From: Heyndrickxia coagulans 36D1
Lineage (GTDB): Bacteria; Bacillota; Bacilli; Bacillales; Bacillaceae_C
Length of the DNA: 64,000 nucleotides
NCBI RefSeq assembly: GCF_000169195.2
Contig: NC_016023.1
Location: 2,232,001-2,296,000 of the forward strand
Reading direction: 5' to 3'
The notes beneath the pieces were generated by a model, which saw only the letters and a program-made list of their open reading frames with translations, searched no databases and was not told where the DNA came from. Of this stretch, positions 34,255 through 51,540 are shown piece by piece (the first letter of the stretch is position 1; each line of letters starts with the position of its first letter). The position numbers were made by a program, and so were the translations under genes.

Positions 34255-34968
34255 ATGAATGCAGAGTCGATTCTGGCAAAACAGCAAGCTTTCTTTTATT
34301 CGGAGAAAACAAAGCCGTATGCATTCCGCATTAGGGCGCTTGAGGCGCTGAAAAAAGCTGTTATCCGGCATGAAAGGGCACTGTCGGGTGCGCTCCGGAA
34401 AGACTTGAACAAGTCGGCGTTTGATGCGTATGCAACAGAAATCGGCATTCTTCTGAGCGAGCTTTCATTTACATTGAAACATTTGAAAAGATGGATGAAA
34501 CCGGAGCGGGCAAAAACGCCGCTCACCCATGCCGGTTCAAAAAGCATGATTATACCGGAACCGTACGGCACGGCGCTCATTATTTCGCCATGGAACTTTC
34601 CGCTGCAGCTCGCGCTTGTACCACTTGTTGGCGCAGTGGCCGCCGGAAACTGTGCAGTGATCAAGCCGTCGGAATACACGCCGCATACTTCAAAAGCTTT
34701 GAAAAAACTGGTGGAAGAAATATTCCCGGAAGATTTTATCGCCGTGATCGAAGGCGGGGTAGAAACGAGCCAGGCGCTTCTTGAACTGCCATTTGAGCCG
34801 TTCGGCGGCGTCGGGGCAAGCGGGATGGGCGCTTACCACGGAAAGGAAAGCTTTAATGCCTTCTCCCACCGGAAAAGTGTGTTACGACAAACAACCGTCT
34901 TCGACATCCCGTTCCGTTATCCAAATATGAAAAATGGGTTGACAAAAATAAAAAGATTTTTAAAATGA
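34255..34968 (+). pseudogene. Aldehyde dehydrogenase with large in-frame internal deletion
   Basis: 237 residues against about 455 in the family. The N-terminal half is normal up to VIEGGVETSQALLELPF, with the NAD-site ISPWNFPLQLALVPLVGA. It then jumps straight to the family's C-terminal FGGVGASGMGAYHGKESF. The missing about 215 residues include the catalytic glutamate (LELGG) and nucleophilic cysteine (GQ-C). The frame is intact across the join (about 34795-34805), but no dehydrogenase activity is expected. GAGAGGA precedes the ATG. It sits directly upstream of the first Trp T-box repeat, and its last codons are part of that repeat. Confidence 0.9.
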
Positions 34969-35270
34969 AGATTGACATTTTTTATTTTCAGCATTAAGAT
35001 AATAATCAATCAATGGCAATGAAGAAGCGTAACCTTTGTGGATTCCGAAGAGAGCCGGTGGGTGGTGCGAACCGGTGATGACATGCAGGCGAATGGGCTT
35101 CCGAGCTTCCAAACCGAAACGTCCGGAGTAGGCTTTGGCGAATGCCTTATCGTTACAAAAGGCAGGTATACGGTTTTTCCCTGATACCGTCAAAGCCGGG
35201 CTGATCAAGCCAATAAAGGTGGCACCGCGGGTTTCCCGTCCTTTACGTGGATTGGGGTCCTCTTTATATT
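34929..35270 (+). repeat. Direct repeat A flanking the accessory island (ALDH 3' end + Trp T-box)
   Basis: Highly similar to 51190-51540: the last 13 codons of the ALDH gene (KNGLTKIKRFLK here, KNGLKKIKKFLK there), the promoter, and the whole T-box leader through its antiterminator. Differences are scattered substitutions and a few indels. The two copies bracket about 16 kb. Confidence 0.93.
34972..35000 (+). promoter_or_regulatory. Sigma-A promoter of the comQ-proximal Trp T-box
   Basis: TTGACA (34972-34977) and TAAGAT (34995-35000) with a 17-bp spacer. The same promoter occurs at 51233-51261. Confidence 0.75.
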
Positions 35271-35276
35271 TTTTTA
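35006..35276 (+). promoter_or_regulatory. Tryptophan T-box leader upstream of comQ (duplicated trp leader)
   Basis: AGAGAGCCGGTGGG distal element, specifier segment CGAA-UGG-GCUUCCGAGC (Trp), and T-box AAAGGTGGCACCGCGGG at 35216-35232. The terminator arms after it are GGGTTTCCC ... GGGGTCCTC with a T-rich tail, and pair less well than GGGTTCCCC / GGGAACCC in the trpE-proximal copy. Termination may therefore be leaky. The next ribosome site (GGGAGAGGG) belongs to comQ. Confidence 0.87.
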
Positions 35277-35376
35277 AAAAATGGGAGAGGGATTATGATG
35301 CAACTGAATCAGAGGCACTTTAACTGATATAAAATACGCGCTTCATGAATTAATTGAAGGTTTTTTTTATGGAGAA

Positions 35377-36255
35377 ATGAAAGATATGGCTCACAAATAT
35401 GCGAGTGAGCATGAGAAAACAAATCTTCCTTTTGGAATGTTGTGTGTAAACCACCACCATTTGCTGGGCGGAAAAAGCGCTTCTGTTTTTCATGTGGCAG
35501 CATGTGTAGAACTGATTATACTTGCCTTTAATATTTTAGATGACTGGCAAGATCAGGATCATCATCGCTCGCCATGGATGCAAGATCATGCAGGCCAATC
35601 ATTGACGGTGGAAACGGCCTTTTTGTTGTTGGCTATGTCAAAATTGAATGGATTTTTAGGCAGTCAAAAAAATAATTTGGCTTTTCAACTAATCGTTGAC
35701 CGAATAAATCGTTCCGTTCATGGTCAATTTGCTGATATTCGAAATGCACCATTGAAAGAAGAAGAATATATTGCAGTAATTAAGCAAAAATCAGGAGCAC
35801 TTTGTGCGCTCGCTTGCTTGTGCGGAGCTATGCTAGCTGGTAATACTACTGATCTTCATTTAATAGGTGAGTATGCAACTGGAATAGGTATTTGTGCCCA
35901 GCTCGAGAACGATCTTGATGATGTTCTCCATTTGGGTGAAAAAAATGATCTAATTCACAAAAAATGGACACTGGCTACCATGTATCTCGCCCATCACCCA
36001 AGCCGAATCGGAAAGGCAGTGGCATCTTATTTTGAAAATCGGCTGTCTTTAGATCGATTACTAGCCATTCAATCATTGGAGGCATGGATTCAATCATCAG
36101 GTGTTATTCTCTATACAAGAGTTTTAATAGAAGCTGAAAAAATAAAAGCAAAAAACATTATTGATAAATTGTCCGTTGACGAAACCATTAAACGACAAAT
36201 CAAGAGCTTTGTTGATGGAATTCATTTCAAGGCGGATATCCCAGGAGAAACTTAA
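35377..36255 (+). CDS. comQ: ComQ-type isoprenyl transferase (ComX maturation), 5' end apparently frameshifted
   Basis: Intact part 292 residues. The Asp-rich motif DDWQDQD (55-61) and a second one at LENDLDD (176-182) are the prenyl-diphosphate sites of the ComQ/polyprenyl-synthase family. It cleaves and prenylates ComX on its tryptophan. The only ATG with a good ribosome site (GGGAGAGGG, ATG 35295) opens MMQLNQRHFN and then hits TGA at 35325. A shift of one base there would continue as DIKYALHELIEGFFYGEMKD into this frame, giving about 325 residues. From ATG 35377 the site GGAG is only 2 nt away. So comQ is either frameshifted, miscalled by one base, or uses a weak internal start. Confidence 0.85.
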   Translation: MKDMAHKYASEHEKTNLPFGMLCVNHHHLLGGKSASVFHVAACVELIILAFNILDDWQDQDHHRSPWMQDHAGQSLTVETAFLLLAMSKLNGFLGSQKNNLAFQLIVDRINRSVHGQFADIRNAPLKEEEYIAVIKQKSGALCALACLCGAMLAGNTTDLHLIGEYATGIGICAQLENDLDDVLHLGEKNDLIHKKWTLATMYLAHHPSRIGKAVASYFENRLSLDRLLAIQSLEAWIQSSGVILYTRVLIEAEKIKAKNIIDKLSVDETIKRQIKSFVDGIHFKADIPGET

Positions 36256-36361
36256 GATTGTAAATCTTAGTTTTTTCCTTAATCTTTAGTTGGAAACATC
36301 ATTTTAAAATATATAAATGGTATTATATGGATGATAGATGAATAATATGGGAGATGATAAG

Positions 36362-36523
36362 ATGGAAACGTTTATTTACCAGTTGATGAAGCAACCACAT
36401 CTGATTGAAGAAATTAAAGCGGGGACTTTTGATTACCCGGAATCTTTTACTGAAGAAGATAAATGTGCCGTATTGAATGCTATCAAAGGGGAGAACAGTC
36501 AAGATTATCGTTTATGGGCCTGA
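36362..36523 (+). CDS. comX: ComX pheromone precursor
   Basis: 53 residues from the ATG at 36362, with GGGAG about 8 nt upstream. The hydrophilic precursor ends SQDYRLWA, with Trp at position 52, next to last. In known ComX peptides the C-terminal 5-10 residues become the pheromone and a near-terminal Trp carries the isoprenyl group. Identity rests on size, the Trp and its place between comQ and comP, since ComX sequences vary widely. comP starts 6 nt after its stop. Confidence 0.88.
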   Translation: METFIYQLMKQPHLIEEIKAGTFDYPESFTEEDKCAVLNAIKGENSQDYRLWA

Positions 36524-36529
36524 TATAAA

Positions 36530-38809
36530 ATGATTAGAATGCGCTTTCTTTTGCTAACTGGTTTATTTTTGTCGTTTATACTTGCTACGTATTTTGTGTT
36601 TGTTATTTTTAAGTATCCATACATAGGCATTATTGTCAAAAAGGCGGATCATCAAATCGTGGTGGACAGTGTAGATCCGTACGGGTGGGCTTCTGAACAG
36701 TCCATTTACAGGGGGGATGTTATCCGGCTTATTGACGGACGTTCTCCAACAAAAAAGCCATCCGTCCAACATAAGGAGATTATTAGTGACGCTAAGAAAA
36801 TAACGATAGAACGCGGGAACCAGGATGTACAATATAAAATAGATAATCATCAGCCTGTTACTGGAATGATTTATTATTTTCTTGTTCCATCGGTTTTCTT
36901 TTTGGTTTGTTTTTCTTTAGGATGTTTTTTATTTAAATTTCTGGATAAAAACAAGTCAATTCCAGTCCTGATCCTTTTTTTAGCAGTAATCGTCCCCGTA
37001 TTACTAAATATTAGTGCCAATTCCCGAATCTACAATTGGAGCAGGTATACAGTGGGGATATTTATGTGTATCAGTCTGGTATTGCTGCTACATTTTTTGC
37101 GAAATTATTATCATTCCTCATCACGACTGGTTTCAAACCATGTGCTTTCTTTTCTATATTTAGGCGCCGGACTTGTTTTGATAAACCGGGTAATCGCCGC
37201 CGATTATCCGCTTGAACTGTTTTTTGTGCCCGTTGTCTTTATCATTCTTATGATCTCTGTTTTTCGATTATATTATCAAACGAAAAACAGTGAGGTGAAA
37301 AAATCATTACAGGTGCTTTTTACGGGTATCTTCCTTGCCCTTATGCCATTTGTCACACTTTACGCACTTCCAATCGTCATTTTCAAGGATTCAATCATGC
37401 CATGGGAGTGGACAACACCTTTTCTTGTTTTTTTACCAATTACAACGGGCTATTTGGTGCTGACTTATAAAATGATTGATTTGTCCTTTATTATCAACCG
37501 GCTGCATTATTATTGCTTGATGAGCCTAATGATAATGTCCGTTATTTTAACGGGAACGCTCGCTTTTGATCCGGGTAAACTGTCGGGCAATATATTTAGG
37601 ATTACACGCCTGGCTCTGTTCGTTTTTACTGTTATACTGTTGTTTTTATATATAAAAGATTATGTCGAATACCGGTTTAGAAAAATTATGTTTCCAAAAC
37701 GGCAGGATTTTCAAATGAGCTTGAATCGTTTTTTGCAATGGATGAAGTCGGAGCATAAGCTGGCTAATTTAGCCTTTATTTTGAAACGGGAAATTGAAAA
37801 CTTTCTGCCAGCTAAGGAAGTTACTTTAGTAAAGGTCGATCAGAATGGGAAAGCTATTTCTTTACTCGACAATACTAAAGTGAATGTGACACATCACTCG
37901 ATGACGAATGAATGTACAGAACGTCTTCAGATGGATGTGCACGGGTTTAAAATCAACTTGTATCATGACAAAAGCGGCACGATCTTTTTATATGGGCGTT
38001 GGAAAATGCGAAGAAAGCTCAATCCCGATGAAAAGATTTGGCTTGAGACGCTTTTAAACTATGCACAGGTTGTGATTGAGAATCAGGACAAGGCTGAAGA
38101 CCTTATCGCTTTATTAAGCTTGGAAAAAGACCGGGATTTGTTGCCGCATACAGTAAAAAAAGCAATTTTTAACATTTCAGAGCGCGAACGCAAGCAATTG
38201 TCGAGGGATCTACACGACACGATCATACAAGAGCTGCTGGCACTGGCGAGGGATGTCGATATCAAAAGGGCCGGTTGTGCTGATCCATTTGTTATTGACA
38301 TGCTGTCCGAAATTCGGGAGGGAATTTTAAATAACATTAAAACATTGCGGGAAATCATACATCATTTACATCCGGAATTTATTCACAAAATGGGCTTGCC
38401 CCTTGCTCTGAATCAATTATGCCTTCAAGTACAAAAACAATCATCATTTGCTTTACATATGCATATCGATCAGCATTTTACAATTTTTGATCGTGAACTG
38501 GAAATCAACATGTATCGTATTGTCCAAGAGCTTTTAAACAACGCGATCAAGCATTCCCAAGCAGAGCATGTAAGCTTAATTTTGGCTGAAGAAAGCACGA
38601 GGTATATTCTTCTTTACGATGATGATGGGATTGGGATAGACAAAGATGTACTCAAACCCCAGCATCATTTCAGCACAATGGGATGGCCAGGTTTAAACGG
38701 GCGCGTAGCCATTACCGGCGGTCAATTAAACATAGACTCACTTAAAACAGGAAACGGTAGGAAAGGGCTTCATTTAGAAATTGTCTGGCCAATCAGCCGA
38801 GGTTTATAA
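36530..38809 (+). CDS. comP: ComP sensor histidine kinase
   Basis: 759 residues, matching B. subtilis ComP in size. After a first membrane helix (about 5-27) there is a PDZ-like segment (about 33-100), then about seven more membrane helices to about 375. A cytoplasmic linker leads to a HisKA_3 dimerisation domain with the phospho-accepting His562 in LSRDLHDTIIQELL, and an HATPase domain with the N-box VQELLNNAIKHS and DDDGIGI. It senses the modified ComX and phosphorylates ComA. No clear ribosome site is seen, so translation is probably coupled to comX. Confidence 0.93.
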   Translation: MIRMRFLLLTGLFLSFILATYFVFVIFKYPYIGIIVKKADHQIVVDSVDPYGWASEQSIYRGDVIRLIDGRSPTKKPSVQHKEIISDAKKITIERGNQDVQYKIDNHQPVTGMIYYFLVPSVFFLVCFSLGCFLFKFLDKNKSIPVLILFLAVIVPVLLNISANSRIYNWSRYTVGIFMCISLVLLLHFLRNYYHSSSRLVSNHVLSFLYLGAGLVLINRVIAADYPLELFFVPVVFIILMISVFRLYYQTKNSEVKKSLQVLFTGIFLALMPFVTLYALPIVIFKDSIMPWEWTTPFLVFLPITTGYLVLTYKMIDLSFIINRLHYYCLMSLMIMSVILTGTLAFDPGKLSGNIFRITRLALFVFTVILLFLYIKDYVEYRFRKIMFPKRQDFQMSLNRFLQWMKSEHKLANLAFILKREIENFLPAKEVTLVKVDQNGKAISLLDNTKVNVTHHSMTNECTERLQMDVHGFKINLYHDKSGTIFLYGRWKMRRKLNPDEKIWLETLLNYAQVVIENQDKAEDLIALLSLEKDRDLLPHTVKKAIFNISERERKQLSRDLHDTIIQELLALARDVDIKRAGCADPFVIDMLSEIREGILNNIKTLREIIHHLHPEFIHKMGLPLALNQLCLQVQKQSSFALHMHIDQHFTIFDRELEINMYRIVQELLNNAIKHSQAEHVSLILAEESTRYILLYDDDGIGIDKDVLKPQHHFSTMGWPGLNGRVAITGGQLNIDSLKTGNGRKGLHLEIVWPISRGL

Positions 38810-38836
38810 ATAGCCAGTTTTACAAGGAGGAGTATA

Positions 38837-39490
38837 ATGATGGCGTCCATACTTGTCATTGATGATCATCGTTTAGTGGCAAGCGGTACGAAGAGTTTGC
38901 TGCAAAACGCAGGATTTGAAGCGGAAGCCATTTTTTCTGCTGATTATTTAAAAGAAAAGATAGAGAGTGCGAATTATGATGTTTTTCTTATTGACTGGAG
39001 TTTTCCTGAAGTGAACGGTCTGGAAATATCAAAAAAAATAATCAAATTACAGCCGCAAGCTAAAATTATTATTTATACGGGTTTTGATTCAGAACTTGCT
39101 ATTGTGTTGGATCAATTAATTGAAGAAGGCATTTCCGGGATTATCAGTAAAACGGCCTCAGTGAATACATTAATTAACGCTGTCCATGCCGTTATCAGTG
39201 GATACAGCATTTTTCCAAATACCCTTGTGAAAGAGTCTGTTTACACCCTCCGGTTGAAAAAGGAAACTGAAAATCTGTTTAGTGAAAGAGAAATAGAAAT
39301 TATTGAGTGTTTAATTGACGGTGATACGAACAAGGAAATTGCTGCTAAACTTTACATCACTCAACGTTCTGTAGAGTATCAGCTGCGCTCCATTTATAAA
39401 AAATTGGGCATTCATTCCAGAGAACAAGTGGCGGATAGAGTAAAAGAAATGAGGATTATTTCGCCTGATTCATATAAAATTCATGGATAG
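38837..39490 (+). CDS. comA: ComA-type response regulator (NarL/LuxR family)
   Basis: 217 residues with AAGGAGGAG upstream. The receiver domain has the acidic pair D9-D10 in VIDDHR, the phospho-acceptor D53 in VFLIDWSF, and lysine in ISKTAS. The C-terminal LuxR helix-turn-helix (about 148-205) has LFSEREIEIIECLIDGDTNK and a recognition helix near ITQRSVEYQLRSIYKKL. Partner of ComP. Likely targets are the adjacent bacteriocin genes, but no ComA box was recognised by eye. Confidence 0.93.
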   Translation: MMASILVIDDHRLVASGTKSLLQNAGFEAEAIFSADYLKEKIESANYDVFLIDWSFPEVNGLEISKKIIKLQPQAKIIIYTGFDSELAIVLDQLIEEGISGIISKTASVNTLINAVHAVISGYSIFPNTLVKESVYTLRLKKETENLFSEREIEIIECLIDGDTNKEIAAKLYITQRSVEYQLRSIYKKLGIHSREQVADRVKEMRIISPDSYKIHG

Positions 39491-39655
39491 AGCGGATTTG
39501 CAAAGAATTCCGCTTTTTTGGTATTAGCCACCAATGTTTGGGCAGCAGCTGTCCACTTTTTTTCGGTGTTACCACACAAAAATTTCGGTGATACCCCGCA
39601 AAGATTTCGGTCATGCCACACAAAAATTTCGGTGACAATGGCTCTTTTGTCAATT
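39428..39655 (+). repeat. Direct repeat C: comA 3' end + terminator + IS-end-like debris (copy 1)
   Basis: From the last comA codons (GCGGATAGAGTAAAA) through the comA terminator (GCGGATT / AATTCCGC with T-run, 39486-39521) to TTTCGGTGACAATGGCTC and ATTAAAATA. It matches 43317-43523 with scattered indels. The part after the terminator carries four TTTCGGTG-type motifs spaced about 21 bp. The remaining bases to 39770 show no gene. Confidence 0.85.
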
Positions 39656-39787
39656 AAAATAAACGTGTCATTTTTTAGGCACTTTTTTGACAATTAAGGA
39701 TCCCCTCAGTGCAAAGTAAATTAGGTCATTTGTACTGTGTGTTGGTGATGTCTTTTTTTATATCAAATTTGATTGGAGGATGAAAAG

Positions 39788-40483
39788 TTGATCGAAGCCA
39801 AGGACATCTCCGTTTCAATTGGAGGAGTACCCGTGCTGCATGCTGAGTCAGTACGTTGCAATTCCGGAACCATGACAGCTCTCGTTGGTCCCAGTGGGTG
39901 TGGGAAAACCACACTTCTGCACTGCCTTGGGTTGTTGCTCCCGGTGGATCAAGGCCAGATTTTATTTAATGGAAAAGATGTTACAAAGTACAATTCATCG
40001 GCACGACGCAAATTTTGGTGTGATCACGCAGCCTTCATACTTCAAGATTACGGAATCATGGATGAGGAGTCGATTGCTTTCAATGTAACCATGCATGCAA
40101 GTATGTTTGGTCGGCGTTTCAGGGGAAATCGCGAACGCTTGGCGAAGGTACTTGAGCAAACAGGTTTACAGGGCCGGGAAAAGGAGCTGGCCGGTCACCT
40201 AAGCGGAGGAGAAAAACAGCGATTAGCTTTAGCGCGTGCTGTTTACAAGGATGCGGAGCTTCTATTTGTTGATGAGCCTACTGCTTCTCTTGACGCAGTC
40301 AATCGGAAAAAAGTCTTCCATTTGTTGGTAAAATTTGCTCTGAGTGGTCGTACAGTGATTGTGTCAACGCACGATTCCGAGATGATTAACGCATGTGGTG
40401 CCAAATATGAAGTCGGTTCTAACAGTTCATTACATAATCCGTCTTCTACTGATTTAACTGGTAATATGGGAGAAACCTTATGA
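39788..40483 (+). CDS. ABC transporter ATP-binding protein (bacteriocin-export/MacB type)
   Basis: 231 residues from the TTG at 39788, with GGAGGA 7 nt upstream. Walker A GPSGCGKTT lies near 34, the signature HLSGGEKQRLALARA near 135, and Walker B LLFVDEPTASLD near 160. It resembles the LolD/MacB ATPases, including the group annotated with lactococcin-972-type loci. The next gene starts inside its stop (ATGA), and a polytopic FtsX-like protein follows, so these probably form one exporter or immunity system. Confidence 0.85.
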   Translation: MIEAKDISVSIGGVPVLHAESVRCNSGTMTALVGPSGCGKTTLLHCLGLLLPVDQGQILFNGKDVTKYNSSARRKFWCDHAAFILQDYGIMDEESIAFNVTMHASMFGRRFRGNRERLAKVLEQTGLQGREKELAGHLSGGEKQRLALARAVYKDAELLFVDEPTASLDAVNRKKVFHLLVKFALSGRTVIVSTHDSEMINACGAKYEVGSNSSLHNPSSTDLTGNMGETL

Positions 40484-40836
40484 AGCCGGTTCATAAGAAA
40501 ATTATTGGTGTGGTTGTCGGTTTGTTGCTAATAGTGGGAGCGCTTGCGTTACTGAACGGCTGGTTCTCAGGCTCAGAGGACACGCATCCGCCGTGCAATC
40601 AGCTGCCGACTGTGTCGAAGGTAGATGAGGCGATTGCTAGCCATCAAAAACTTACTAAGGAGATAAAATCAATAGGGGATGACATTACAGTTGAAGTGGG
40701 GAGGCCTTGCTCCAAAGACCAGAACCGGGGACTGGTCATGGTGAAATATGGTACAAAAACTGAGCGTAAAGCGATTGATGATCTTCTCAGCCGTCGAAAC
40801 GGGTTCGGGGTCCCGGTATATCTGGTGAAGAACTAA
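40480..40836 (+). CDS. Membrane-anchored protein of unknown function
   Basis: 118 residues, overlapping the ATPase gene by 4 nt. One N-terminal hydrophobic helix (about 9-28) is followed by an extracytoplasmic domain with two cysteines (PPCNQLP and GRPCSKDQ) that could form a disulfide. No family is recognised. Its position between ATPase and permease suggests an accessory subunit of the same system. Confidence 0.7.
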   Translation: MKPVHKKIIGVVVGLLLIVGALALLNGWFSGSEDTHPPCNQLPTVSKVDEAIASHQKLTKEIKSIGDDITVEVGRPCSKDQNRGLVMVKYGTKTERKAIDDLLSRRNGFGVPVYLVKN

Positions 40837-40949
40837 TGCCTATTTCCACCGTAGGATGACTTTTTACATTAGGAAACAGCATGGCAATAATTCATTTGTT
40901 TTTTTTAATATGTTGGCCGAATAACAGTGTGAAGGAAGGAAAGGAATAA

Positions 40950-41069
40950 ATGAAAAAACATGATCTGCTAATCCTCGCTATTACACAGAGGCTCAACAAT
41001 AATAATAAAAAACATTGGGAAACGGTGAGTCGAGTTTCTGACGTTCATGGAGGGTTTATCTGTGTATAA
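40950..41069 (+). CDS. Possible 39-residue ORF overlapping the next gene
   Basis: ATG behind GAAGGAAGGAAAGG. It encodes a 39-residue peptide (MKKHDLLILAITQRLNNNNK...) whose TAA (41067-41069) lies just past the preferred GTG start (41062) of the permease gene, in another frame. It could serve as a coupling leader. The peptide resembles nothing known to me. Confidence 0.4.
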   Translation: MKKHDLLILAITQRLNNNNKKHWETVSRVSDVHGGFICV

Positions 41070-43035
41070 GCGTATTATCGTGGTGGTTGCGAGTGCCTTG
41101 TTTGCACTACTTGCGTTGCTCGCTGCAATTATCACAGGCCTATATGATCGAGACTTTCCGCAAGCCATTCATACTGGGAGTAGGATTAGCCTAGACTTTA
41201 GCGAATCAAATATTTCCATTACTAAGGCATTTGACACGTTGGAGAAATTAGATGCACGCTGGGGTCTGGGACTAGTCAAGGTTGCACCGGATCTTGAGGG
41301 GGATGGCGATGCTCAGATTTTCGTGGCACTTAATAATGAGGGCTTCCCCAAGGAATTTACTTGGTTTGGCGGCGAAGGTACAGGTAAGATCGTTGGGAAG
41401 GAGAGACTTGCCACTTCTTACCCTGATGGTTTATATTTAGTGACCGGAAAGGAAACCCACTTGAATGAGTTGGTGAACTCGTTAAAGCAATCAGGTGTTA
41501 AGGTGAGTCGTACGGATGCGTCAATTTTTCGCAGTCTAGAATTTGTGGTGCGGGAAAGGGGATTTGCTGCTGCTGTTGTTGCAGCTTTTGCGCTAATCGC
41601 CGCACTGGCGTTGTTTTGGTTGTCGTTGAGAGCACGCGGGCGAGCGCTCCGTGTTTTAGGTGGATGTCCAACCGTACAAATCCAAATGCAGGATCTATCA
41701 GGGTTCGGTGGTGCACTACTGCTTGCGGCGTTAGTCGTGGTGGTGGTTTCAGCAGGCTATGTAGGTATATTTCATGGCTGGATGTACGTAGGTGCCTTTC
41801 TCAAAGCTTTAGTAAGTCTACAAGTTGCAATCATCGGTGTATCCCTATTCGTAGCGTTTGTTATGTCGGCTTCTGCCTGGCCGAGCGCCACCATGCTTGC
41901 CACCAGACAACCAGCAGTAAAGAGCCTGCGTGTAGCGGCAATTGTGATTCAAGTATTAACTTTTCTACTGGTGGTTGCTGCGGCCGGACCCGCATGGTCT
42001 ACATACAAACACTCTTCAGCTATGGCAGCTGAAATGGCACAGTGGAAGCAATTGGCAGACCAAGTCGCCATTGTATTTGCAACAGATGTTGATGAAATGG
42101 ACAGCTTGGAACCCCAAATTGGCAAATTAGTAAAAGAAGCTGAATCGCGTGATAAGGTTGCTCTATCTTATACTTTTACCAAAGAAATGGGATTACCGGC
42201 TGATTCTGGAAAGTATTCAGCAGTCTCATTCGTGAACCAGCGTTGGCTCGACCTAGTGACTAAGGGTGCACCACAGTCAGCTGTTAAACCGGTACCTTAT
42301 CGCAGTATTCCAAAGGGACTCATTCAAATGGTTCGTGAAGAGACTAAACTTCTATCAAGGCATGGTTTTTCTAGGGAATCATTCGGACAGCTTCAGTTTA
42401 TGCAACCAGTAAAAGGGTTTCAGTTACCAGTGGCCCAAGGAGGTGGGGGCCAAAGTCTTCACTTTGCTGACGATGTCCTGGTCGTTGTTGTGCCATCGAT
42501 TTATGATGCATTTAACGATTCTACACTAACCTCCATGGCTTCAACTAGTAACATTGTGTTTACCGGTGTGGCTGCTACACAGCAATTGTTAAAAAATCAC
42601 GGCCTTGATGTGCGCGCGTTACGCGAACACGGCATTCATGGTGAACTTCATATTGCTTACATTGCTGAAGATGGGATTCTTCAAGCGCAGTTTGCAGCGA
42701 ATGTTGTAAGGTTGCAGAGCTTTGCGCTGATTGCCTTGGTGGTTGCTTTCACTGTCGCAACAGTGATCAGTGCGTTGATTACCGCGATATTACGGGCGAA
42801 ACATGACTTCCCGCTTCGGTTGGCGGGTCAATCTTGGGCACGGATTTTATGGAATCGTGTGGTCAAGGAATTGCTAATTGGTACCGGCCTTGCGGGCATT
42901 GTTGTCATGCTACAAAGGCCAGATGCGATGGAAGCCGTACTTGTGATAGCAGTATATGGATTGCTTGTCGTACCGTTAAGTCATCTTTTTGCTACGCGCT
43001 ATTGTTTCAATGGTGTTATCAGACGTCGAATTTGA
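41062..43035 (+). CDS. Bacteriocin-associated integral membrane protein (DUF1430/FtsX-like permease)
   Basis: About 657 residues from GTG 41062 (GGAGGG 7 nt upstream); ATG 41047 is an alternative. One N-terminal helix is followed by an extracytoplasmic region (about 30-165), a group of three or four helices (about 170-310), a second large extracytoplasmic region (about 320-540) and three C-terminal helices. This 7-8 helix plan with two big loops matches the bacteriocin-associated 7TM proteins found with MacB-type ATPases. Role: efflux or immunity partner of the ATPase. No lactococcin-972-like precursor was found beside it. Base composition is richer in GC than the following bacteriocin cluster. 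Confidence 0.75.
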   Translation: MYKRIIVVVASALFALLALLAAIITGLYDRDFPQAIHTGSRISLDFSESNISITKAFDTLEKLDARWGLGLVKVAPDLEGDGDAQIFVALNNEGFPKEFTWFGGEGTGKIVGKERLATSYPDGLYLVTGKETHLNELVNSLKQSGVKVSRTDASIFRSLEFVVRERGFAAAVVAAFALIAALALFWLSLRARGRALRVLGGCPTVQIQMQDLSGFGGALLLAALVVVVVSAGYVGIFHGWMYVGAFLKALVSLQVAIIGVSLFVAFVMSASAWPSATMLATRQPAVKSLRVAAIVIQVLTFLLVVAAAGPAWSTYKHSSAMAAEMAQWKQLADQVAIVFATDVDEMDSLEPQIGKLVKEAESRDKVALSYTFTKEMGLPADSGKYSAVSFVNQRWLDLVTKGAPQSAVKPVPYRSIPKGLIQMVREETKLLSRHGFSRESFGQLQFMQPVKGFQLPVAQGGGGQSLHFADDVLVVVVPSIYDAFNDSTLTSMASTSNIVFTGVAATQQLLKNHGLDVRALREHGIHGELHIAYIAEDGILQAQFAANVVRLQSFALIALVVAFTVATVISALITAILRAKHDFPLRLAGQSWARILWNRVVKELLIGTGLAGIVVMLQRPDAMEAVLVIAVYGLLVVPLSHLFATRYCFNGVIRRRI

Positions 43036-43523: not shown

Positions 43524-43680
43524 TATGAGTATCAGATACGTTGATTAGTGTATCTTTCTAAAGTTCTTAATGTCCTTAATAACTGATAAAAAATACCCTT
43601 GATTTTCTTATGAGTTGAGGAAAAAAGATTGAAGAATTCAATTATTAACAATATTAAACAATTAATGGAGAGATAAACAA

Positions 43681-44253: not shown

Positions 44254-44307
44254 TAATGGGGGGGCTATTAAACTATATATATAAAAATTAAGATTGGAGT
44301 GAAATGT

Positions 44308-44646: not shown

Positions 44647-44697
44647 TTAGCATTACCTGCCCCCCTTTTTTAGTTTGAAGAAAGAGTTGACGAGTTT

Positions 44698-46359
44698 ATG
44701 AAAAATAATAATTATAGTATACTGTATTATATTGTGAAATTTAATATACTCTCAAAGACAAGAAAAAAATTAGACGATTGGAATCTGAATCATATTGGGG
44801 TTAAAAAGGCCTTTTATGCTTTATTATCCTTTATCTTTCTCACTTCATTACTAGTGTTTATTTTGTCGTTTTATATTAGTAAGAAATACATGCTCCCAAA
44901 TACATATTTACAGTTACTGTTGGTATTCATTTTCATTGAACAAATCGCTTCGTCCCTAAGTTTTTTCAAAAACAATAGAGACTATTTTTTAAAAGATGAA
45001 AGAAAGTTAATCCATCAAAATAGAAGGATTAGGATTGTTCAGTTGAAATCTGTTTTAGTATATAAAACTATTGAAAAAGCAATGCTAACAAGTATTTTAA
45101 TATTAATACCCGTTTTATTAGCTTTAAACCTAACCCAAAACTCAATTATCGGTATATTTGATTTGCTTCTCATAGTACTTATGTATTTCTTTGTTAACTT
45201 TTTCTTGTCGTTGTTATTCTCTTACATTCCATATATTTTATCAATTTTATGGTCAAGAGCATTAAAATCATCCATTATAAAAATAATTGCATTAATTATC
45301 AACCTATTGGTACCTGTGATTATTGGCTTCTTCGGATTTTATTTGCTGAATAAATTTAATATTGTACAGTCCCTGTATGAATTATCCCATACTAAAATAT
45401 TTTATTATTTTAAAGTGGCAAACCCTTATCAAGTAATTTGTAAAAATAACATTTCCACCGACTTAATCATTGTTTCAATTTTGGCGGTTTCATGTGTGCT
45501 TGTATATATAATATGGAGCAAAACTTTAGAGAGATTCGACTTAATAGAGTACACGAAATTAAATAATCGAGTTTACTCAAACACAATACCGCTAGCAAAT
45601 AAAAAGAAAATATTTTATTGTATCTTACATAAAGATAGAGCTTTTCTATTAAGAATCGATGGTTTCTTTTTTAGAAATCTTGGCAACATGCTATTTTTGG
45701 TTATGTTTTTTCTTGGATTTGGTTTCCCTTTTATCTTAAGATACTTTAGTGGCTATCCTGTTCAAGCATCGATTATTTCCGCTTTTTTAATTTCTTCATT
45801 GTTCTATCAGCTTGTTGGAGATGCAATAAAAATGATTCTTTCCGTTGAATTAGATTTAAAAAATTACCATATTTTTTATTCTAATGTATTTAATTTATGG
45901 GAATTAGCAAAACCAAAATTAAGAAATTATAATCTTATTGTTTGGTTTCTAACGATTTTTCTAACTTTTATTTCTTTTTTCTGGCAACCTTATTTCATTC
46001 TGATTCATTTTGTATTTTTTATTATATTTTTGTGTAACGGTTATTTATATAGCCTTATTCAAACAAGTAGTGTTTTACTGTATCCCAAAAAGAATTGGGA
46101 GCATTTCTATGAAATCGGGGAATCAAGTAAAGCAAAAACATTTCAACATATCTACGAAGGATGTATCTTTGTCATTATATTACAAATGATAAGTCTCGTC
46201 AGTTTCCTGTTAATGAAATTCAGTACTTTTTCTTCAATTATACTTTTAAGCCTTGGGACAGTTATGATTGTTTTTACTTTACTTAATTATTTATTCTCTA
46301 TGTTATATCTAAAAAAGATTAACATGAATGAGAGGTACATTTTGAATGATAGAGATTAA
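44698..46359 (+). CDS. acnC: Circular-bacteriocin biosynthesis membrane protein (CirB/AcnC type)
   Basis: 553 residues, about 12 hydrophobic helices, with the length and position of the large membrane protein found in all circular bacteriocin clusters (CirB, UblB, AcnC). It is thought to take part in leader cleavage, cyclisation or export. It is strongly AT-rich. Its stop overlaps the next ATPase gene by 14 nt. Confidence 0.8.
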   Translation: MKNNNYSILYYIVKFNILSKTRKKLDDWNLNHIGVKKAFYALLSFIFLTSLLVFILSFYISKKYMLPNTYLQLLLVFIFIEQIASSLSFFKNNRDYFLKDERKLIHQNRRIRIVQLKSVLVYKTIEKAMLTSILILIPVLLALNLTQNSIIGIFDLLLIVLMYFFVNFFLSLLFSYIPYILSILWSRALKSSIIKIIALIINLLVPVIIGFFGFYLLNKFNIVQSLYELSHTKIFYYFKVANPYQVICKNNISTDLIIVSILAVSCVLVYIIWSKTLERFDLIEYTKLNNRVYSNTIPLANKKKIFYCILHKDRAFLLRIDGFFFRNLGNMLFLVMFFLGFGFPFILRYFSGYPVQASIISAFLISSLFYQLVGDAIKMILSVELDLKNYHIFYSNVFNLWELAKPKLRNYNLIVWFLTIFLTFISFFWQPYFILIHFVFFIIFLCNGYLYSLIQTSSVLLYPKKNWEHFYEIGESSKAKTFQHIYEGCIFVIILQMISLVSFLLMKFSTFSSIILLSLGTVMIVFTLLNYLFSMLYLKKINMNERYILNDRD

Positions 46360-47047
46360 AAATATTAAAAAACGATTCGATAAAAAAATTGTTCTGAGGG
46401 GGCTTTCTCTGGAAATTAAAGACGGCGATTTTTTTGGAATATTAGGGACAAACGGTGTAGGGAAAACAACTTTGTTAAAAATTATTGCAGGGATGATGGT
46501 TCCTGATAGTGGGGAAGTCACCATAAATGGAGAAAAACAAGACATTAAAAATTATGCATTGCAAAATCTTATAGGATTTGTACCGGATCACGCTATTTTA
46601 TACGAATATCTTACGGGAGAAGAGTATCTGTATTTTGTTGGCGGAATGTTTAATGTGCCAAAAAAGAAAATTGTCGAATTTGCCGCGAATATCCTTAATG
46701 ATTTTGAATTGTATAATGAGAAAGATCAATTAATAAAAACGTATTCTCATGGAATGAAGCAAAAGATTTCGATAGCGGCTGCTCTAATACATGAGCCTCA
46801 AATTTTAATATTAGATGAACCGCTTACGGGAATAGATTTAAAATCAAGTAAGGTTATAAGGAAATTTCTAAAAGATTACACGGATAAAGGAAAAACAGTG
46901 CTCATAACAACTCACTTATTAGAATTAGCTCATTCTGTTTGCAACCAAATAGCAATCATCCATGAAGGCAAACTTGCCAGAAAAATAACCGTGCAAGATT
47001 ATAGCTTGGATAAATTAGAGGAGGAAGTAGAAAACATATATGTATAA
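46346..47047 (+). CDS. acnD: ABC transporter ATPase of the circular bacteriocin cluster
   Basis: 233 residues. Walker A GTNGVGKTTLLK lies near 35, the signature-like YSHGMKQKISIAAALIHEP near 132, and Walker B ILILDEPLTGID near 150. It corresponds to CirD/AcnD and powers export together with the membrane proteins. The signature reads SHGMKQK instead of LSGGQ, as in many bacteriocin and antibiotic ATPases. It overlaps both neighbours. Confidence 0.9.
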   Translation: MIEIKNIKKRFDKKIVLRGLSLEIKDGDFFGILGTNGVGKTTLLKIIAGMMVPDSGEVTINGEKQDIKNYALQNLIGFVPDHAILYEYLTGEEYLYFVGGMFNVPKKKIVEFAANILNDFELYNEKDQLIKTYSHGMKQKISIAAALIHEPQILILDEPLTGIDLKSSKVIRKFLKDYTDKGKTVLITTHLLELAHSVCNQIAIIHEGKLARKITVQDYSLDKLEEEVENIYV

Positions 47048-47564
47048 AGTTCCCTCTATTCTAAGAAACAATTGGATTTTGTTGACGATTACAACAGCAA
47101 TCTATGTTTCGGGTTTTGTATACGGTATCACATCCGCTGATCCAGTTAATAAAAGCGGAAGTTTAAATACAACATCCAGTCTGATACATCTAATTGACAA
47201 TAATTTATTAGCGTGCGGTCTGATTATTTCCGGTTTTTTTACGTTTGGTTTAACTACAATTTTATATTTATTTACAAATGGATTAATCCTTGGCGAATCC
47301 ATTATGAATAATCTGGACTTTGGTGTATTAAAAATTGTTTTATTGATTTTACCACATGGAATATTCGAAATTCCTGCTTTAATTGTAAGTGGAGTAATTG
47401 GTTTTAAAGGTATTGCTCTAATTCCTCAATTGTTCCACAAGAAAAATATCAGCAACTTTATCAAAGATTATTTTACAAATATACTGCTATTACTAATTGT
47501 GGTAATGCTATTTGTTATGATCAGCGGTTTAATAGAAACCTATTTGACACCATTATTCAAATAG
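47040..47564 (+). CDS. acnE: SpoIIM/DUF95-family membrane protein of the bacteriocin cluster
   Basis: 174 residues, about five helices. LPHGIFEIPALIVSGVIGF is the hallmark of the stage II sporulation protein M-like (DUF95) family that accompanies circular bacteriocins (CirC, AS-48C). It is believed to act in export and immunity. It overlaps acnD by 8 nt. Confidence 0.88.
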   Translation: MYKVPSILRNNWILLTITTAIYVSGFVYGITSADPVNKSGSLNTTSSLIHLIDNNLLACGLIISGFFTFGLTTILYLFTNGLILGESIMNNLDFGVLKIVLLILPHGIFEIPALIVSGVIGFKGIALIPQLFHKKNISNFIKDYFTNILLLLIVVMLFVMISGLIETYLTPLFK

Positions 47565-47577
47565 AAAGGATAGGAAA

Positions 47578-47805
47578 ATGAAAAAAATAGGTGAAATCTT
47601 ATATTTGATTGGAATTCCGCTTGTTTTAGCTTTCGGATTGATTATATCCCATTATTATCCATTTTTATTGCCAGTAAGTACTTTCGGGTTATTTGGTTTA
47701 TATATGTTTTTGTTTAGCCCATTTAAAAAGATTTTTGCACGAATACTATTTATCACAGTATTTATTGTAAACTTAATCGGCAGTGTTCTTTTATATTTTG
47801 CCTGA
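47578..47805 (+). CDS. acnF: Small hydrophobic protein, probable bacteriocin immunity peptide
   Basis: 75 residues with two or three membrane helices and a basic loop (SPFKKIFAR), directly after acnE behind AAAGGA. Its size, hydrophobicity, charge and position match the immunity proteins of circular bacteriocins. The sequence itself is not conserved enough to prove it. Confidence 0.65.
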   Translation: MKKIGEILYLIGIPLVLAFGLIISHYYPFLLPVSTFGLFGLYMFLFSPFKKIFARILFITVFIVNLIGSVLLYFA

Positions 47806-47820
47806 AAGGAGATGGGATAG

Positions 47821-48018: not shown

Positions 48019-48090
48019 ATTTCCATAGTTGCGTTTTAAGCCACATTTATTAACAAGAAATAAAAACATATTTATGAACGAGGTTTTATC

Positions 48091-49149
48091 ATGAATGAAG
48101 AGACAGCTAACGGGAAGAAAAATCTCATTATTGCTTTGATTATTATTGCCGCCCTTTTTGGAGTGCTGTGCTTGGTAATTGTTTTAAGGACGCATGCAAG
48201 TTTAAAAAGCGAACCCCATTACCAGCAATATGTGGTCAAATATACTCCGGCGTTAGTTGAAACAGGGAAGGTTTCAGCAAAGCAGACACAGAATTTGCAA
48301 ATACCGGATGGTACAGTACAAAAAGTAAATGTACGGAACGGTGATGAAGTGAAAAAAGGGGATGTTCTCTTAACAACCCATAATAACGAAATCATAGAGA
48401 AGATTACTGACGTGAAACAGAGTATTTTAAAAATGCAGCGCGACTTAGCGGTTCAAAAACAAAACATTGCTTATCTTAAAAAGAAATTATCAGCAGTACA
48501 CCAAGAAGAGAATAAAGAGGAGCTGAATCTTGAAATTGCAAGAGATCAGAATACCTATCGAGATACAGAAGCTGGTTTGCAAAATCAACAGGATCAATTA
48601 AATCAGCTGGAGAATAGAGTGGAGGGCAGGTTAAAAGCACCGTTTGATGGTGTGGTGAGTATTTCCACTAATAATAGCGGCCAATCGCAATACAGCATCA
48701 GCTCGGATGCTTTAGAGGTCCAGTCGAGTGTTTCCGAATATGACTATGACAAGTTGCGTGTAGGGAGTAAAGTGGTTATTAAGGCCTTGGCAAACGGGAA
48801 GAGGCAGACCACAACCATTCAGTTTATTTCCAAAATACCCTCAAAAACCGCTACTAAGAAAGGCTTTTCAATGTATGACTTCACGGTCGATGTGGATCGC
48901 CGCTTTATGGCAGGCCAAAGCGTGCAAATCACAATACCACAAAAGCAAATAAAGCTTCCGAGCAAAGCCATTATCAAAAAGAATGGTCAAACGGCCGTTT
49001 ATTTAGTCGTAAATGGAAAAGCACGTTTTCGCACTGTGGCGGTAGAGAAACAGAACGGTTTCTACACCCTCAAAAGCGGATTGCACCCCGGCGATCGTAT
49101 TGTGGCTGATCCGGACAAACGACTAAAAGATGGAGCGAAGGTGAACTGA
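48091..49149 (+). CDS. HlyD/MacA-type membrane fusion protein
   Basis: 352 residues. An N-terminal membrane anchor (about 10-31) is followed by a biotinyl-lipoyl-like segment (VQKVNVRNGDEVKKGDVL), a coiled coil (about 110-185), the second lipoyl half (RLKAPFDGVVS), and a beta-barrel region. It is the adaptor of a tripartite-like exporter with the next two genes, in the same position as AS-48E/F-type proteins of the second transporter in enterocin AS-48 clusters. Likely role: self-protection or extra export of the circular bacteriocin. Confidence 0.85.
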   Translation: MNEETANGKKNLIIALIIIAALFGVLCLVIVLRTHASLKSEPHYQQYVVKYTPALVETGKVSAKQTQNLQIPDGTVQKVNVRNGDEVKKGDVLLTTHNNEIIEKITDVKQSILKMQRDLAVQKQNIAYLKKKLSAVHQEENKEELNLEIARDQNTYRDTEAGLQNQQDQLNQLENRVEGRLKAPFDGVVSISTNNSGQSQYSISSDALEVQSSVSEYDYDKLRVGSKVVIKALANGKRQTTTIQFISKIPSKTATKKGFSMYDFTVDVDRRFMAGQSVQITIPQKQIKLPSKAIIKKNGQTAVYLVVNGKARFRTVAVEKQNGFYTLKSGLHPGDRIVADPDKRLKDGAKVN

Positions 49150-49833
49150 TTGATTCGATTAGAACGGCTCAACAAGTATTATCAACAAGGAGATGAAAAA
49201 ATTCATGTGCTGAAGGATATTTCTTTGGAAATTAATCAAGGAGAGTTCGTGGCAATTATGGGGCCGTCGGGTTCGGGCAAATCAACGCTCATTAATATCA
49301 TTGGCTTTCTTGATAATCAATTTGAGGGTGAATACTTGTTTAAGAGGAATTCGGTAATTGGCAAGTCATCAAAAGACTATGCAAAGTTGCGAAATCAAAA
49401 CGTGGGCTTCGTTTTCCAAAATTTTAAACTGATTGCGAATTTAACGGTTGCTGAGAATGTTGGTTTACCGCTGCTTTATGCCGGATACCGCCGAAAGGAC
49501 ATCGGCGAACGAGTGAATAATGTATTACAAAGTGTGCATTTAAAAGGAATTGCTAAAAAGTTGCCGTCCCAGCTGTCGGGCGGCCAGCAACAGCGTGTTG
49601 CCATTGCCCGCGCCCTTATATCCAAGCCGAGTTTCTTACTGGCCGATGAGCCCACTGGCGCACTTGACAGGCATACTTCGCAAGAGATTTTAAAACTGTT
49701 CCTTGACTTAAATCAAAAATTACGATCCACCATTATTATGGTTACGCACGATTACCAAGTTGCCAGCCAGAGCCAACGTATGATTCAAATTATGGATGGC
49801 CGGATTGAAAGCGATAGGAGCGTCAGCAAATGA
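49150..49833 (+). CDS. MacB/LolD-type ABC ATPase
   Basis: 227 residues from a TTG start right after the adaptor gene's stop. Walker [10 protein letters not shown], signature [16 protein letters not shown] and Walker [13 protein letters not shown] are all canonical. The stop overlaps the permease start by 4 nt. ATPase of the second exporter (AS-48G-like by position). Confidence 0.9.
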
Positions 49834-51011
49834 GGGCAGCCGAACTGTTTTTTACTGCAATACGTTCGCTTTTGGCGAATCGAAGGCGAAGTATTTTAAC
49901 AATGTTGGGCATCGTTATCGGCATTGCCTCGGTGATTACGATTATTTCCTTAGGTAAAGGCGTTGAGAAAGCAACTCTTAAAAATTTACAGGCGTCCAAT
50001 TCGGGCAAGCAGTCAACTGTCGTGGAATATTATGCTGACGATTTGAACGCGGCCGAATCTGGTTTTAATGAGTCGGATCTATCGTTATTAAATTCCGCCG
50101 GGGCAAGCTTCGGACTGGCAGAGGCTCATATTATTAACGATGACAATGGGACAGTCGATGTCCAGGCTTCGCTAAATGGTAGCGAACAAAACGTAACAGT
50201 AAAGCTTCTTAAACGTTCTTCTTCGGAACAAGAGATTTCTGCTGGCCATAATATCTCTCAAAATAATATCACATTCGCTGATCCTGTTGCTTTAATTTCA
50301 AAAAAATTGGCGGCTTCTATTTATATTCAACCCAATCGTGCCTTAGATACGGCTGTCATCGTGAATGGGATTAGCTACCATGTTATCGGAGTCTTTGAAA
50401 ATGCCGATGATTTTCATGATATAATGATTCCCAAAAAGGTTTATAAGAAAAGTAATATCAGCAACGTGGGAAATAAATTAAAACTGGTCTTCAATCGCGG
50501 GGAAAACGTCAGTAAACAAACAAAAAAAATCGTCAGCCTGCTCAACAAGCAGGGCAGCCATCATTTGCAGGGGAGCTATGAGCATATAGAAATGGGGCAA
50601 ATCTTGAAAGGCATTGGATCAGTCATTAACAGTTTAACCTACTTCATTAGCGCAATTGCCGGGATTTCGCTGTTTATTGCTGGGATTGGGGTAATGAACA
50701 TGATGTATATTTCTGTCTCTGAACGTACCCGGGAAATTGGCATTCGTCTCGCTATCGGCTCAACCCCAAAGAATATCTTATTCCAGTTCCTTTTGGAAGC
50801 GGTGTTGTTGACGGGAATAGGCGGCTTGATTGGTTTTGGGATAGGTGGTGGACTCGCGTGGCTCATTTCGCTCTTCTTACCTTTCCGTGCCGTGATCGGT
50901 GTAGGAAGCTTTTTACTCGCTTTTTGCGTCTCTACCTTTGTCGGCATTCTATTTGGCATATTGCCGGCTAAAAATGCAGCCAATAAGAACTTGATCGATA
51001 TTTTGCGTTAG
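49830..51011 (+). CDS. MacB-type ABC permease (FtsX domain)
   Basis: 393 residues. A first helix (LTMLGIVIGIASVITIISLG, about 22-41) precedes a periplasmic-core-like domain (about 45-265) and three C-terminal helices of the FtsX domain with SVSERTREIGIRLAIGSTPK in the cytoplasmic loop. Partner of the ATPase and adaptor upstream. The 178 bp after its stop hold no gene and lead into direct repeat B. Confidence 0.9.
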   Translation: MRAAELFFTAIRSLLANRRRSILTMLGIVIGIASVITIISLGKGVEKATLKNLQASNSGKQSTVVEYYADDLNAAESGFNESDLSLLNSAGASFGLAEAHIINDDNGTVDVQASLNGSEQNVTVKLLKRSSSEQEISAGHNISQNNITFADPVALISKKLAASIYIQPNRALDTAVIVNGISYHVIGVFENADDFHDIMIPKKVYKKSNISNVGNKLKLVFNRGENVSKQTKKIVSLLNKQGSHHLQGSYEHIEMGQILKGIGSVINSLTYFISAIAGISLFIAGIGVMNMMYISVSERTREIGIRLAIGSTPKNILFQFLLEAVLLTGIGGLIGFGIGGGLAWLISLFLPFRAVIGVGSFLLAFCVSTFVGILFGILPAKNAANKNLIDILR

Positions 51012-51189
51012 GATGTTGATTGGAAGAATACAGTGGTCTAAACAATGATGAATGTGCAAAGTAAAATGTCCTAACCGGACCCCTTCTTCGAACGAAGTGG
51101 CCATGCGTGCCCTTTCGCGTATTTTTTCCCGGGTAGGCCAAGTCACTTTTTCACAAGGAAGACAAGGTTTGTCCGCCAAATGTTACTTG

Positions 51190-51540
51190 GAAAAATGGGC
51201 TGAAAAAAATAAAAAAATTTTTGAAATGAAGGTTGACAATTCTTATTTTCAGCATTAAGATAATAATCAATCAATGAAACATTTTTCAGGCGATGAAGAA
51301 GAAGAGTAACCTGTGTGGATTCCGAAGAGAGCCGGTGGGTGGTGCGAACCGGTGATGACGTGCAGGCGAATGGGCTTCCGAGCTTCCAAACCGAAACGAT
51401 TCCGGAGTAGGCTTTGGCGAATGCCTTATCGTTACAAAAGGCAGGTATTACGGTTTTTCCCTGATACCGTCAAAGCCGGGCTGATTAAGCCAATAAAGGT
51501 GGCACCGCGGGTTCCCCGTCCTTTACATGGATTGGGAACC
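51190..51540 (+). repeat. Direct repeat B flanking the island (ALDH 3' remnant + Trp T-box)
   Basis: This is the second copy of 34929-35270. It begins with an in-frame remnant of the ALDH C-terminus (KNGLKKIKKFLK, stop) although no ALDH gene precedes it here. The T-box part is about 9 bp longer than copy A near 51285. Confidence 0.93.
51233..51261 (+). promoter_or_regulatory. Sigma-A promoter of the trp operon
   Basis: TTGACA (51233-51238), 17 bp, TAAGAT (51256-51261), ahead of the tandem T-boxes. Confidence 0.75.

Follow-up and report, generated by a model that had tools for sequence, protein, structure and literature searches.

How did a block of quorum-sensing and bacteriocin genes come to lie between an ALDH gene and the trp operon of Heyndrickxia coagulans 36D1? 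In the window, the whole 64,000-nucleotide stretch analysed, one intact and one decayed leader surround this block (Table 1). This suggests that it arrived by recombination at an RNA switch and not at a usual insertion site.

Table 1. Features of the island and its flanks, by position in the window
Feature	Position	Strand	Evidence or remark
SDR / NAD_binding_4 reductase-like gene, left flank	33068..34240	+	PF07993 3e-46
ALDH gene, pseudogene-like	34255..34968	+	in-frame internal deletion, 237 aa
Repeat copy A: ALDH tail, promoter, decayed Trp T-box leader, 5' of comQ	34929..35265	+	
T-box A	35010..35246	+	RF00230 103.2 bits; deletion near stem I base
comQ-like isoprenyl transferase	35377..36255	+	PF00348 6e-19; N-terminus possibly frameshifted
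comX-like pre-pheromone	36338..36523	+	translation, ending QDYRLWA
comP-like histidine kinase	36530..38809	+	PF07730, PF02518
comA-like response regulator	38837..39490	+	PF00072, PF00196
Inner repeat copy 1: comA 3' end, terminator-like hairpin, promoter-like GTGACA-17-TAAAAT	39431..39660	+	four TTTCGG elements, 22-bp spacing
ABC cassette: ATPase, 118-aa protein, 662-aa membrane-like protein	39773..43035	+	
Inner repeat copy 2: comA tail remnant without comA, terminator-like hairpin, promoter-like sequence	43319..43524	+	three TTTCGG elements
Circular bacteriocin cluster: precursor, ABC ATPase, SpoIIM-like protein, DUF5970	43681..47805	+	
Circular bacteriocin precursor	44299..44646		PF09221 2.5e-22, 79.3 bits; TIGR03651 66.8 bits (cutoff 30.7)
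HlyD, ABC ATPase, MacB/FtsX exporter	48091..51011	+	last 0.4 kb persists as a remnant in DSM 1
Spacer, MacB to copy B	51012..51189	none	not detectably ALDH-derived
Repeat copy B: ALDH tail relic, promoter, intact Trp T-box 1 of trp operon	51190..51545	+	RF00230 116.5 bits
T-box 2 of trp operon, outside repeat	51573..51822	+	RF00230 138.5 bits
trpE, first trp operon gene	51994..53376	+	PF00425, PF04715

Copies A and B bracket 15.9 kb as direct repeats, 16.26-16.28 kb apart. An earlier note on this DNA had called them near-identical. They are indeed direct repeats, but the term overstates their likeness: blastn aligned 34929-35256 with 51190-51536 at 90.5% identity over 347 columns, and the longest identical stretches were 48, 46 and 38 nt. 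As the note had claimed, both carry the ALDH 3' end (copy B, as we read it, ends KNGLKKIKKFLK-stop), a promoter (TTGACA-17-TAAGAT) and a Trp T-box that scores above the RF00230 gathering cutoff of 93 bits. The specifier position, as we read it, is UGG. When the whole genome was scanned for the leader, only these two sites matched over most of its length; the two remaining matches spanned 28 and 40 bp. The island boundary coincides with a whole repeat unit at both ends, no additional partial copy was found, and a boundary out of register with the repeats was not seen. We also considered the spacer upstream of copy B as a longer ALDH relic; this was ruled out, its local alignment being no better than that of shuffles.

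The two leaders differ in predicted function. Folding of the terminator region gave z-scores of -0.37 and -0.62 for copy A, no better than shuffles, versus -2.98 and -3.09 for copy B and -3.27 for the leader of strain DSM 1. Strong terminators are predicted in copy B, DSM 1 and T-box 2. Copy A is decayed, with a competing terminator predicted to be weak, and copy B, which combines a T-box score above the cutoff with a strong predicted terminator, is intact. The trp operon retains its own promoter and tandem T-boxes, copy B with T-box 1 followed by T-box 2, in agreement with the earlier note. For comQ, copy A may have left a promoter without a Trp switch. A T-box before comQ is not general: none of 27 comP-anchored loci (seven, L018-L024, and twenty, L041-L060; L061-L066 were left out) contained one at the gathering cutoff, in a sample with 1.5-kb flanks that did not always reach far above comQ, with comQ presence unconfirmed per locus, and to which some further comP matches contributed no locus. 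Searches of the open-licence PMC literature turned up neither an island bounded by T-boxes nor a T-box 5' of comQ.

The content of the block largely bears out the first description, with comQXPA, an ABC cassette and a circular bacteriocin cluster between the repeats; the HlyD-ABC-MacB genes are an addition to that list. The com genes follow the order Q-X-P-A on a single strand, with a Trp near the C-terminus of ComX. The comX-like protein had no Pfam or NCBIfam match; with the comX region of another genome (G180) it shared 48% identity across 52 residues, and the comP-like kinase was 51-52% identical to ComP from that genome. Homology of comQ with one relative (L021) starts 5' of the first in-frame ATG. 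The bacteriocin precursor belongs by family match to the uberolysin/circularin type, and the 662-aa protein of the ABC cassette showed similarity to TIGR01654 below the cutoff. The GC content of the island segments is, in order, 38, 46, 30 and 42%, versus 48 and 52% in the flanks. The claim that the island is AT-richer thus stands for most segments but not for the ABC cassette, which at 46% is hardly AT-richer than the flanks. Scanned with Pfam, 19 proteins (16 island, 3 flanking) included no integrase, recombinase or transposase, in a scan where five of the 16 island proteins had no family match and smaller ORFs lay outside. An Rfam gathering scan of the window listed no tRNA.

On the left flank, the ALDH gene before copy A is an internally deleted remnant: against the 466-aa ALDH 6k0z it covers residues 18-200 and 400-465 and lacks the middle. 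The neighbouring SDR-like gene had no match at 1e-40 in seven other genomes searched. Read from the sequence, decayed tails in W. acidilactici and H. acidiproducens indicate that an ALDH tail stood before the trp leader ancestrally. The presence of the tail relic in copy B therefore does not in itself point to foreign origin.

Is a single leader the older state? In each of four congeners, all draft assemblies where comP drew no match at 1e-30 and comA none at 1e-20, we found one such leader, and none showed a second copy. Hence two ALDH-tail/T-box copies without the island were not seen among these relatives. The assembly of H. acidiproducens is interrupted at a group II intron that lies between the two T-boxes, and its site could therefore not be read through. 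Only one genome in the comparison has the full island; in the four congeners no island DNA was found beyond the terminal 587 bp, present in DSM 1, and short matches (66-93%, mostly ABC-ATPase sequence). DSM 1 shows the single leader but holds a remnant rather than an empty site. There the SDR-like gene is reduced to its upstream edge, joined at 33133, and DSM 1 has apparently lost nearly all of the island by a 17.5-kb deletion in which the repeats played no part. Excision through the repeats, as suggested earlier, was thus not the route of the one visible loss. The island end differs between 36D1 and DSM 1 at 9 of 580 positions (98.4% alike), and the flanks, at 571 of 9392 on the left and 395 of 5580 (summed) in trp, are mostly 93-94% alike. 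Among 780 overlapping windows, 3 reach the similarity of the island end, in one other patch of the flanks.

At sites where the W. acidilactici and H. acidiproducens leaders are the same, B matches both at 20 substitutions between A and B, and the reverse occurs at none; DSM 1 agrees with A at two of these 20, and some A-specific substitutions adjoin gaps. A recent near-identical duplication is ruled out, since 26 of 338 sites differ and the change lies off B in 20 of 20 polarised substitutions. In a tree, copy A groups with B and DSM 1. Of the placements that would take A out of this group, the two tested were rejected (AU p 0.00075 and 0.00078). Duplication thus fits an origin within the H. 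coagulans lineage, and any donor leader would have been conspecific or nearly so. The tree does not resolve the branching order among the three, so that the duplication may predate or postdate the split of 36D1 and DSM 1.

A second repeat lies inside the island. Its two copies, 90.7% identical over 182 columns, bracket the ABC cassette, with the whole comA at the left and a 20-codon comA tail at the right. This is the same design as the outer repeat, a gene tail with a control region. The promoter-like sites of the two inner copies lie at 39632 and 43496. Matches to the promoter pattern with two mismatches occurred at the level of a reversed-pattern control and only exact ones were counted, of which 36D1 has four and DSM 1 one. 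IS ends were thought an unlikely identity for the inner repeats, which have three long and a few short copies in the genome, beside promoter-like sequence.

The reading that we favour, to which as a whole we give a probability of about 0.5, starts from an ancestral order of ALDH, promoter, T-box 1, T-box 2 and trpE. Cargo with comQXPA, export and bacteriocin genes would have entered at the leader within the H. coagulans lineage and duplicated about 340 bp, namely ALDH tail, promoter and T-box 1. Single-crossover entry would best account for the sequence, most simply a RecA-type event with circular or multimeric DNA that carried a closely related leader. The left copy would have become the upstream region of comQ and, with its strong terminator and some of the stem I region gone, would now, as the folding predicts, probably be a promoter without the Trp switch. 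Selection for trp control would have kept the right copy. A like event inside the island would then have duplicated the comA tail and the TTTCGG-array promoter around the ABC cassette. The island end would later have become common to the 36D1 and DSM 1 lineages through recombination, and DSM 1 would have lost nearly all of the island. The leader-to-leader recombination of Campbell type that the earlier note proposed is compatible with the repeats, the boundaries and the single-leader congeners, which fall short of demonstrating the mechanism. Copy A decay, the A/B/DSM 1 grouping, the ALDH deletion, the nested repeat, the DSM 1 deletion and the similarity of the island end are new beyond that note.

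Searches of viral contigs and plasmids yielded no donor, circle, plasmid or phage with the leader or cargo, and no empty 36D1-type strain was found. Nothing useful came from viral contigs searched with the leader, ComP and a 553-aa protein, or from plasmids searched with the comQXPA/ABC part and the 553-aa protein; genome contigs searched with ComP gave no lead. Another plasmid search matched 405 records; in the 20 listed, no more than 17% of the query is covered, at ABC transporter genes where the gene is named.

The strongest rival, which we hold to be possible but improbable, places duplication first: a short tandem copy of ALDH tail and T-box 1 would have arisen, and foreign DNA would have come between the copies by illegitimate recombination. 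A cargo-free duplication of a gene tail does occur nearby, where the trpB 3' end (57418-57574) is repeated at 57575-57713, likewise in DSM 1; a locus (L090) taken for the trpB-trpA junction of another genome, G003, did not contain that junction. Direct repeats of at least 80 bp were present in 10 of 17 stretches of 20 kb that were sampled; by spacing most are tandem or, in the seven stretches inspected, they lie in gene families or rRNA/tRNA-like sequence. However, the insertion must strike the unit junction almost exactly, with no partial unit on either side, and the inner repeat requires this coincidence a second time. Duplication at insertion is favoured because whole units stand at the boundaries, without the partial copy that insertion into a tandem duplication would usually leave.

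Somewhat less probable still is a route through natural transformation, by homology-facilitated illegitimate recombination or by alternative pairing, in which a linear donor is anchored in the leader and its other end is joined without homology. Late-competence gene homologues are reported in B. coagulans DSM 1, 36D1 and 2-6 (PMC3536758), and transformation of S. pneumoniae with partly repeated fragments produced tandem duplications (PMC3784515), but B. coagulans is also termed recalcitrant to transformation (PMC3536758), and this route and a circular single crossover cannot be told apart by sequence alone. A classical site-specific island or transposon with coincidental leader repeats would fit the atypical GC of most segments and the direct repeats at both ends, but is very improbable given the lack of an integrase, recombinase or transposase among the 16 island proteins scanned and repeats of ~340 bp whose gene-tail content is unlike att cores or target duplications.

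The ends of this chromosomal island coincide with an RNA regulatory leader, apparently in place of a tRNA or att site; downstream control is kept, and the redundant copy is decaying. A second, nested case hints that accessory gene blocks may grow at control regions without a recombinase. More speculatively, and in our view rather doubtfully, the locus could be a quorum-sensing/bacteriocin platform of modular build, put together by one single-crossover insertion after another at regulatory leaders. Each cargo would then have brought or duplicated the gene tail and control region of its landing site, so that the downstream operon kept its control and the incoming genes gained a resident promoter, the trp leader thereby turning into a Trp-blind comQXPA promoter. 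Through the duplicated comA-proximal TTTCGG promoter, one quorum-sensing regulator would govern the ABC cassette and the circular bacteriocin alike. This leads to the hypothesis of quorum-sensing control of a circular bacteriocin in a lactic-acid species used as a probiotic.

Genomic islands of the tRNA/att type have atypical composition, direct repeats at their ends and variable presence. The 36D1 island shares these traits, but its repeat joins a gene tail, a promoter and a riboregulator, and no recombinase was seen. Campbell-type insertion-duplication places a whole unit on each side of the cargo, leaving the full gene end at the left and the tail at the right. 36D1 shows this layout, with the cargo between full direct copies of the homology, here as a natural and nested pair. 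The ComA recognition element of B. subtilis is TTGCGG; in direct repeats, which lie near -35 and bind with 4-5-nt spacers, a T is noted at the third position of the second element, giving a TTTCGG-like hexamer (PMC4797271). The TTTCGG hexamer of 36D1 is similar, but its spacing is 22 bp, so that the likeness to a ComA-activated promoter extends to the hexamer alone. PMC4008528 includes the comQXPA locus of 36D1 itself among the 'canonical unusual' com systems, its comX being hypothetical, and sees no reason to think such loci functional. Its account concerns the same strain and the same kind of locus; repeats, leaders or a bacteriocin are not mentioned in that account, and the words horizontal, neighbor, transpos and tRNA are absent from the main text. 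Tandem T-boxes before trpE are a known arrangement in Bacillota, according to PMC12452182. 36D1 has the same pair, and in addition a displaced, decayed T-box 1 lies 16 kb upstream, before comQ.

The direct repeats that the earlier note had described at either end of the 15.9-kb island are real: copy A, before comQ, and copy B, before the trp operon, are 90.5% identical over 347 columns (blastn), with longest identical stretches of 48, 46 and 38 nt. Both contain the ALDH 3' end and a TTGACA-17-TAAGAT promoter, and the T-box in each scores above the Rfam gathering cutoff. Across the whole 36D1 genome (a single 3,552,226-bp contig), matches to most of the leader's length occur at these two places only. 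The structure is real and well bounded, and entry of the island through recombination at the leader is its best explanation, though unproven. The ALDH gene before copy A is not intact. Its product covers residues 18-200 and 400-465 of a 466-aa enzyme in alignment and so lacks the middle, presumably the part carrying the catalytic Cys.

Features of the window (strand where assigned; gene labels of the T-box targets are ours)
Position	Strand	Feature	Context
2211-2314		SAM riboswitch	
8921-9162	minus	T-box	before branched-chain amino acid transporter-like gene
26429-26639	minus	T-box	before aminotransferase/SerA-like pair
30144-30180		promoter-like TTTCGGTGACAATGGCTC, of the inner-repeat type	about 300 bp before glycogen phosphorylase-like gene; retained in DSM 1
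34939-34966		second promoter-like TTGACA-16-TAAAAT	inside ALDH tail of copy A alone; absent from B in same scan
35296-35377		possible comQ 5' frameshift	ribosome-site-like sequence and ATGATG open 10 codons, then stop
39431 and 43319 (starts)		inner repeat copies	around ABC cassette
57418-57713		tandem duplication of trpB 3' end (83%)	before trpA
60386-62327		52-bp units in a long tandem array	

The locus was compared with four relatives, all draft assemblies whose identities agree with matches of 200-nt probes. In W. acidilactici JC-4 and in H. acidiproducens DSM 23148, a chemotaxis-receptor gene is followed by an ALDH tail (decayed, in our reading), one T-box 1, T-box 2 and trpE, an arrangement that makes the tail part of the ancestral trp leader; H. 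ginsengihumi Gsoil 114 lacks the tail there. In H. acidiproducens the trp T-boxes are also separated by a group II intron, which adjoins the terminator of T-box 1 (L027:1-250 and L028:1-290), and the contigs break there. Island DNA gave these three relatives short matches only (30-242 bp, 66-93%; 1, 9 and 2 rows in W. acidilactici, H. acidiproducens and H. ginsengihumi), mostly of ABC-ATPase sequence, and a diverged ABC-MacB pair seems to be present elsewhere in the H. acidiproducens genome.

H. coagulans DSM 1 does not provide the empty site that had been sought. Its sequence passes directly from window position 33133 to 50603, with a GGGG at the joint common to both sides, and the locus is an island remnant; beyond the retained island end, it matches the island over just one stretch, 44 bp of ABC-ATPase sequence. 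The repeats were not the endpoints of this deletion. The idea that they let the island excise is unsupported by this single visible loss. Differences between 36D1 and DSM 1 number 9/580 in the MacB tail and spacer, 4/356 in leader B and 11/249 in T-box 2, against 75/1383 in trpE and 571/9392 in the left flank. At four-fold sites 2/64 differ in the island end; for trpE, the phosphorylase and the chemotaxis gene together the count is 151/814 (Fisher 5e-4, treating sites as independent). Among 780 overlapping windows of the flanks, three reach the similarity of the island end, and these three belong to a single patch near 24.1 kb. Because of these fewer differences, the island end and leader B seem to trace to a more recent 36D1/DSM 1 ancestor than does most of the DNA around them, with the breakpoint uncertain owing to constraint on the leader.

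When A and B were aligned with the four relatives, A differed at 20 substitution columns where B agreed with W. acidilactici and H. acidiproducens, and the reverse pattern did not occur; some A-specific changes adjoin gaps. Gap columns were assigned to A in 10 cases and to B in 8 (six at the outer edge), 13 columns were ambiguous, and DSM 1 agrees with A in 2 of the 20. The AU test rejected both tested trees placing A outside the A/B/DSM 1 group (p 0.00075 and 0.00078) and retained all three orders inside it, the best pairing A with DSM 1. The terminator region of A has no more predicted folding stability than shuffled sequence (z -0.37 and -0.62; B and DSM 1, -2.98 to -3.27), and the promoter hexamers of A are preserved, from which we infer that comQ would have a promoter in copy A but no functional Trp terminator switch.

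Of 17 genome samples of 20 kb each, 10 contain direct repeats 80 bp long or longer. Among the matches listed (up to 8 rows per stretch, which omits 14 rows of L093 and L101), pairs more than 2 kb apart, in at least three stretches, were rRNA-like sequence, a repeated gene family and a minisatellite (our labels); none resembled a gene tail and control region placed around unrelated cargo (17 stretches, context viewed in 7 of the 10). Repeats in multiples of about 52 bp, as in the array at 60386-62327, also appear in control stretches L092 and L093. A short tandem duplication that preceded the cargo stays a live alternative, since a cargo-free gene-tail duplication exists beside trpA, that of trpB; it is also found in DSM 1 and is single in H. 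acidiproducens.

The nearest ComP outside 36D1, among 397 genomes of the order, has 52% identity. It belongs to genome G180, where comQXPA adjoins pyr-like genes (our labels) and comQ is a remnant. This closest comQXPA relative and genome G012 (loci L068 and L069) likewise gave no more than partial ComQ matches. In 36D1, ComQ homology begins in a frame other than that of the ATGATG and upstream of the first in-frame ATG; comQ may carry a 5' frameshift. A comQXPA census that lists 36D1 finds no grounds for regarding the unusual com loci, 36D1's included, as functional (PMC4008528). According to a nine-strain comparison (PMC8954581), 36D1 and a single further strain carry an hlyD, which may or may not be the island's HlyD gene; this fits a patchy distribution.

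Within the island, the inner repeat copies are 90.7% identical over 182 columns. The left is the genuine comA end; the right is an indel-bearing comA tail that no comA gene precedes. After the tail, both have a terminator-like hairpin, TTTCGG elements every 22 bp (four in the left copy, three in the right) and the sequence GTGACA-17-TAAAAT. Upstream of an ABC-transporter-like gene (our label) at 0.73 Mb lies a third copy, which lacks the comA tail. All five plus-strand TTTCGG pairs of the window spaced 19-24 bp fall inside these arrays (minus strand: one, elsewhere); 30 simulated windows had none at exactly 22 bp on one strand, and 17 genome stretches, both strands, contained one pair. DSM 1 retains one exact promoter of this type with no ComA match at 1e-20, which speaks against ComA as its exclusive regulator. 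The hexamer is similar to the one that ComA recognises in B. subtilis; the 22-bp spacing here, however, falls outside the published rule (PMC4797271).
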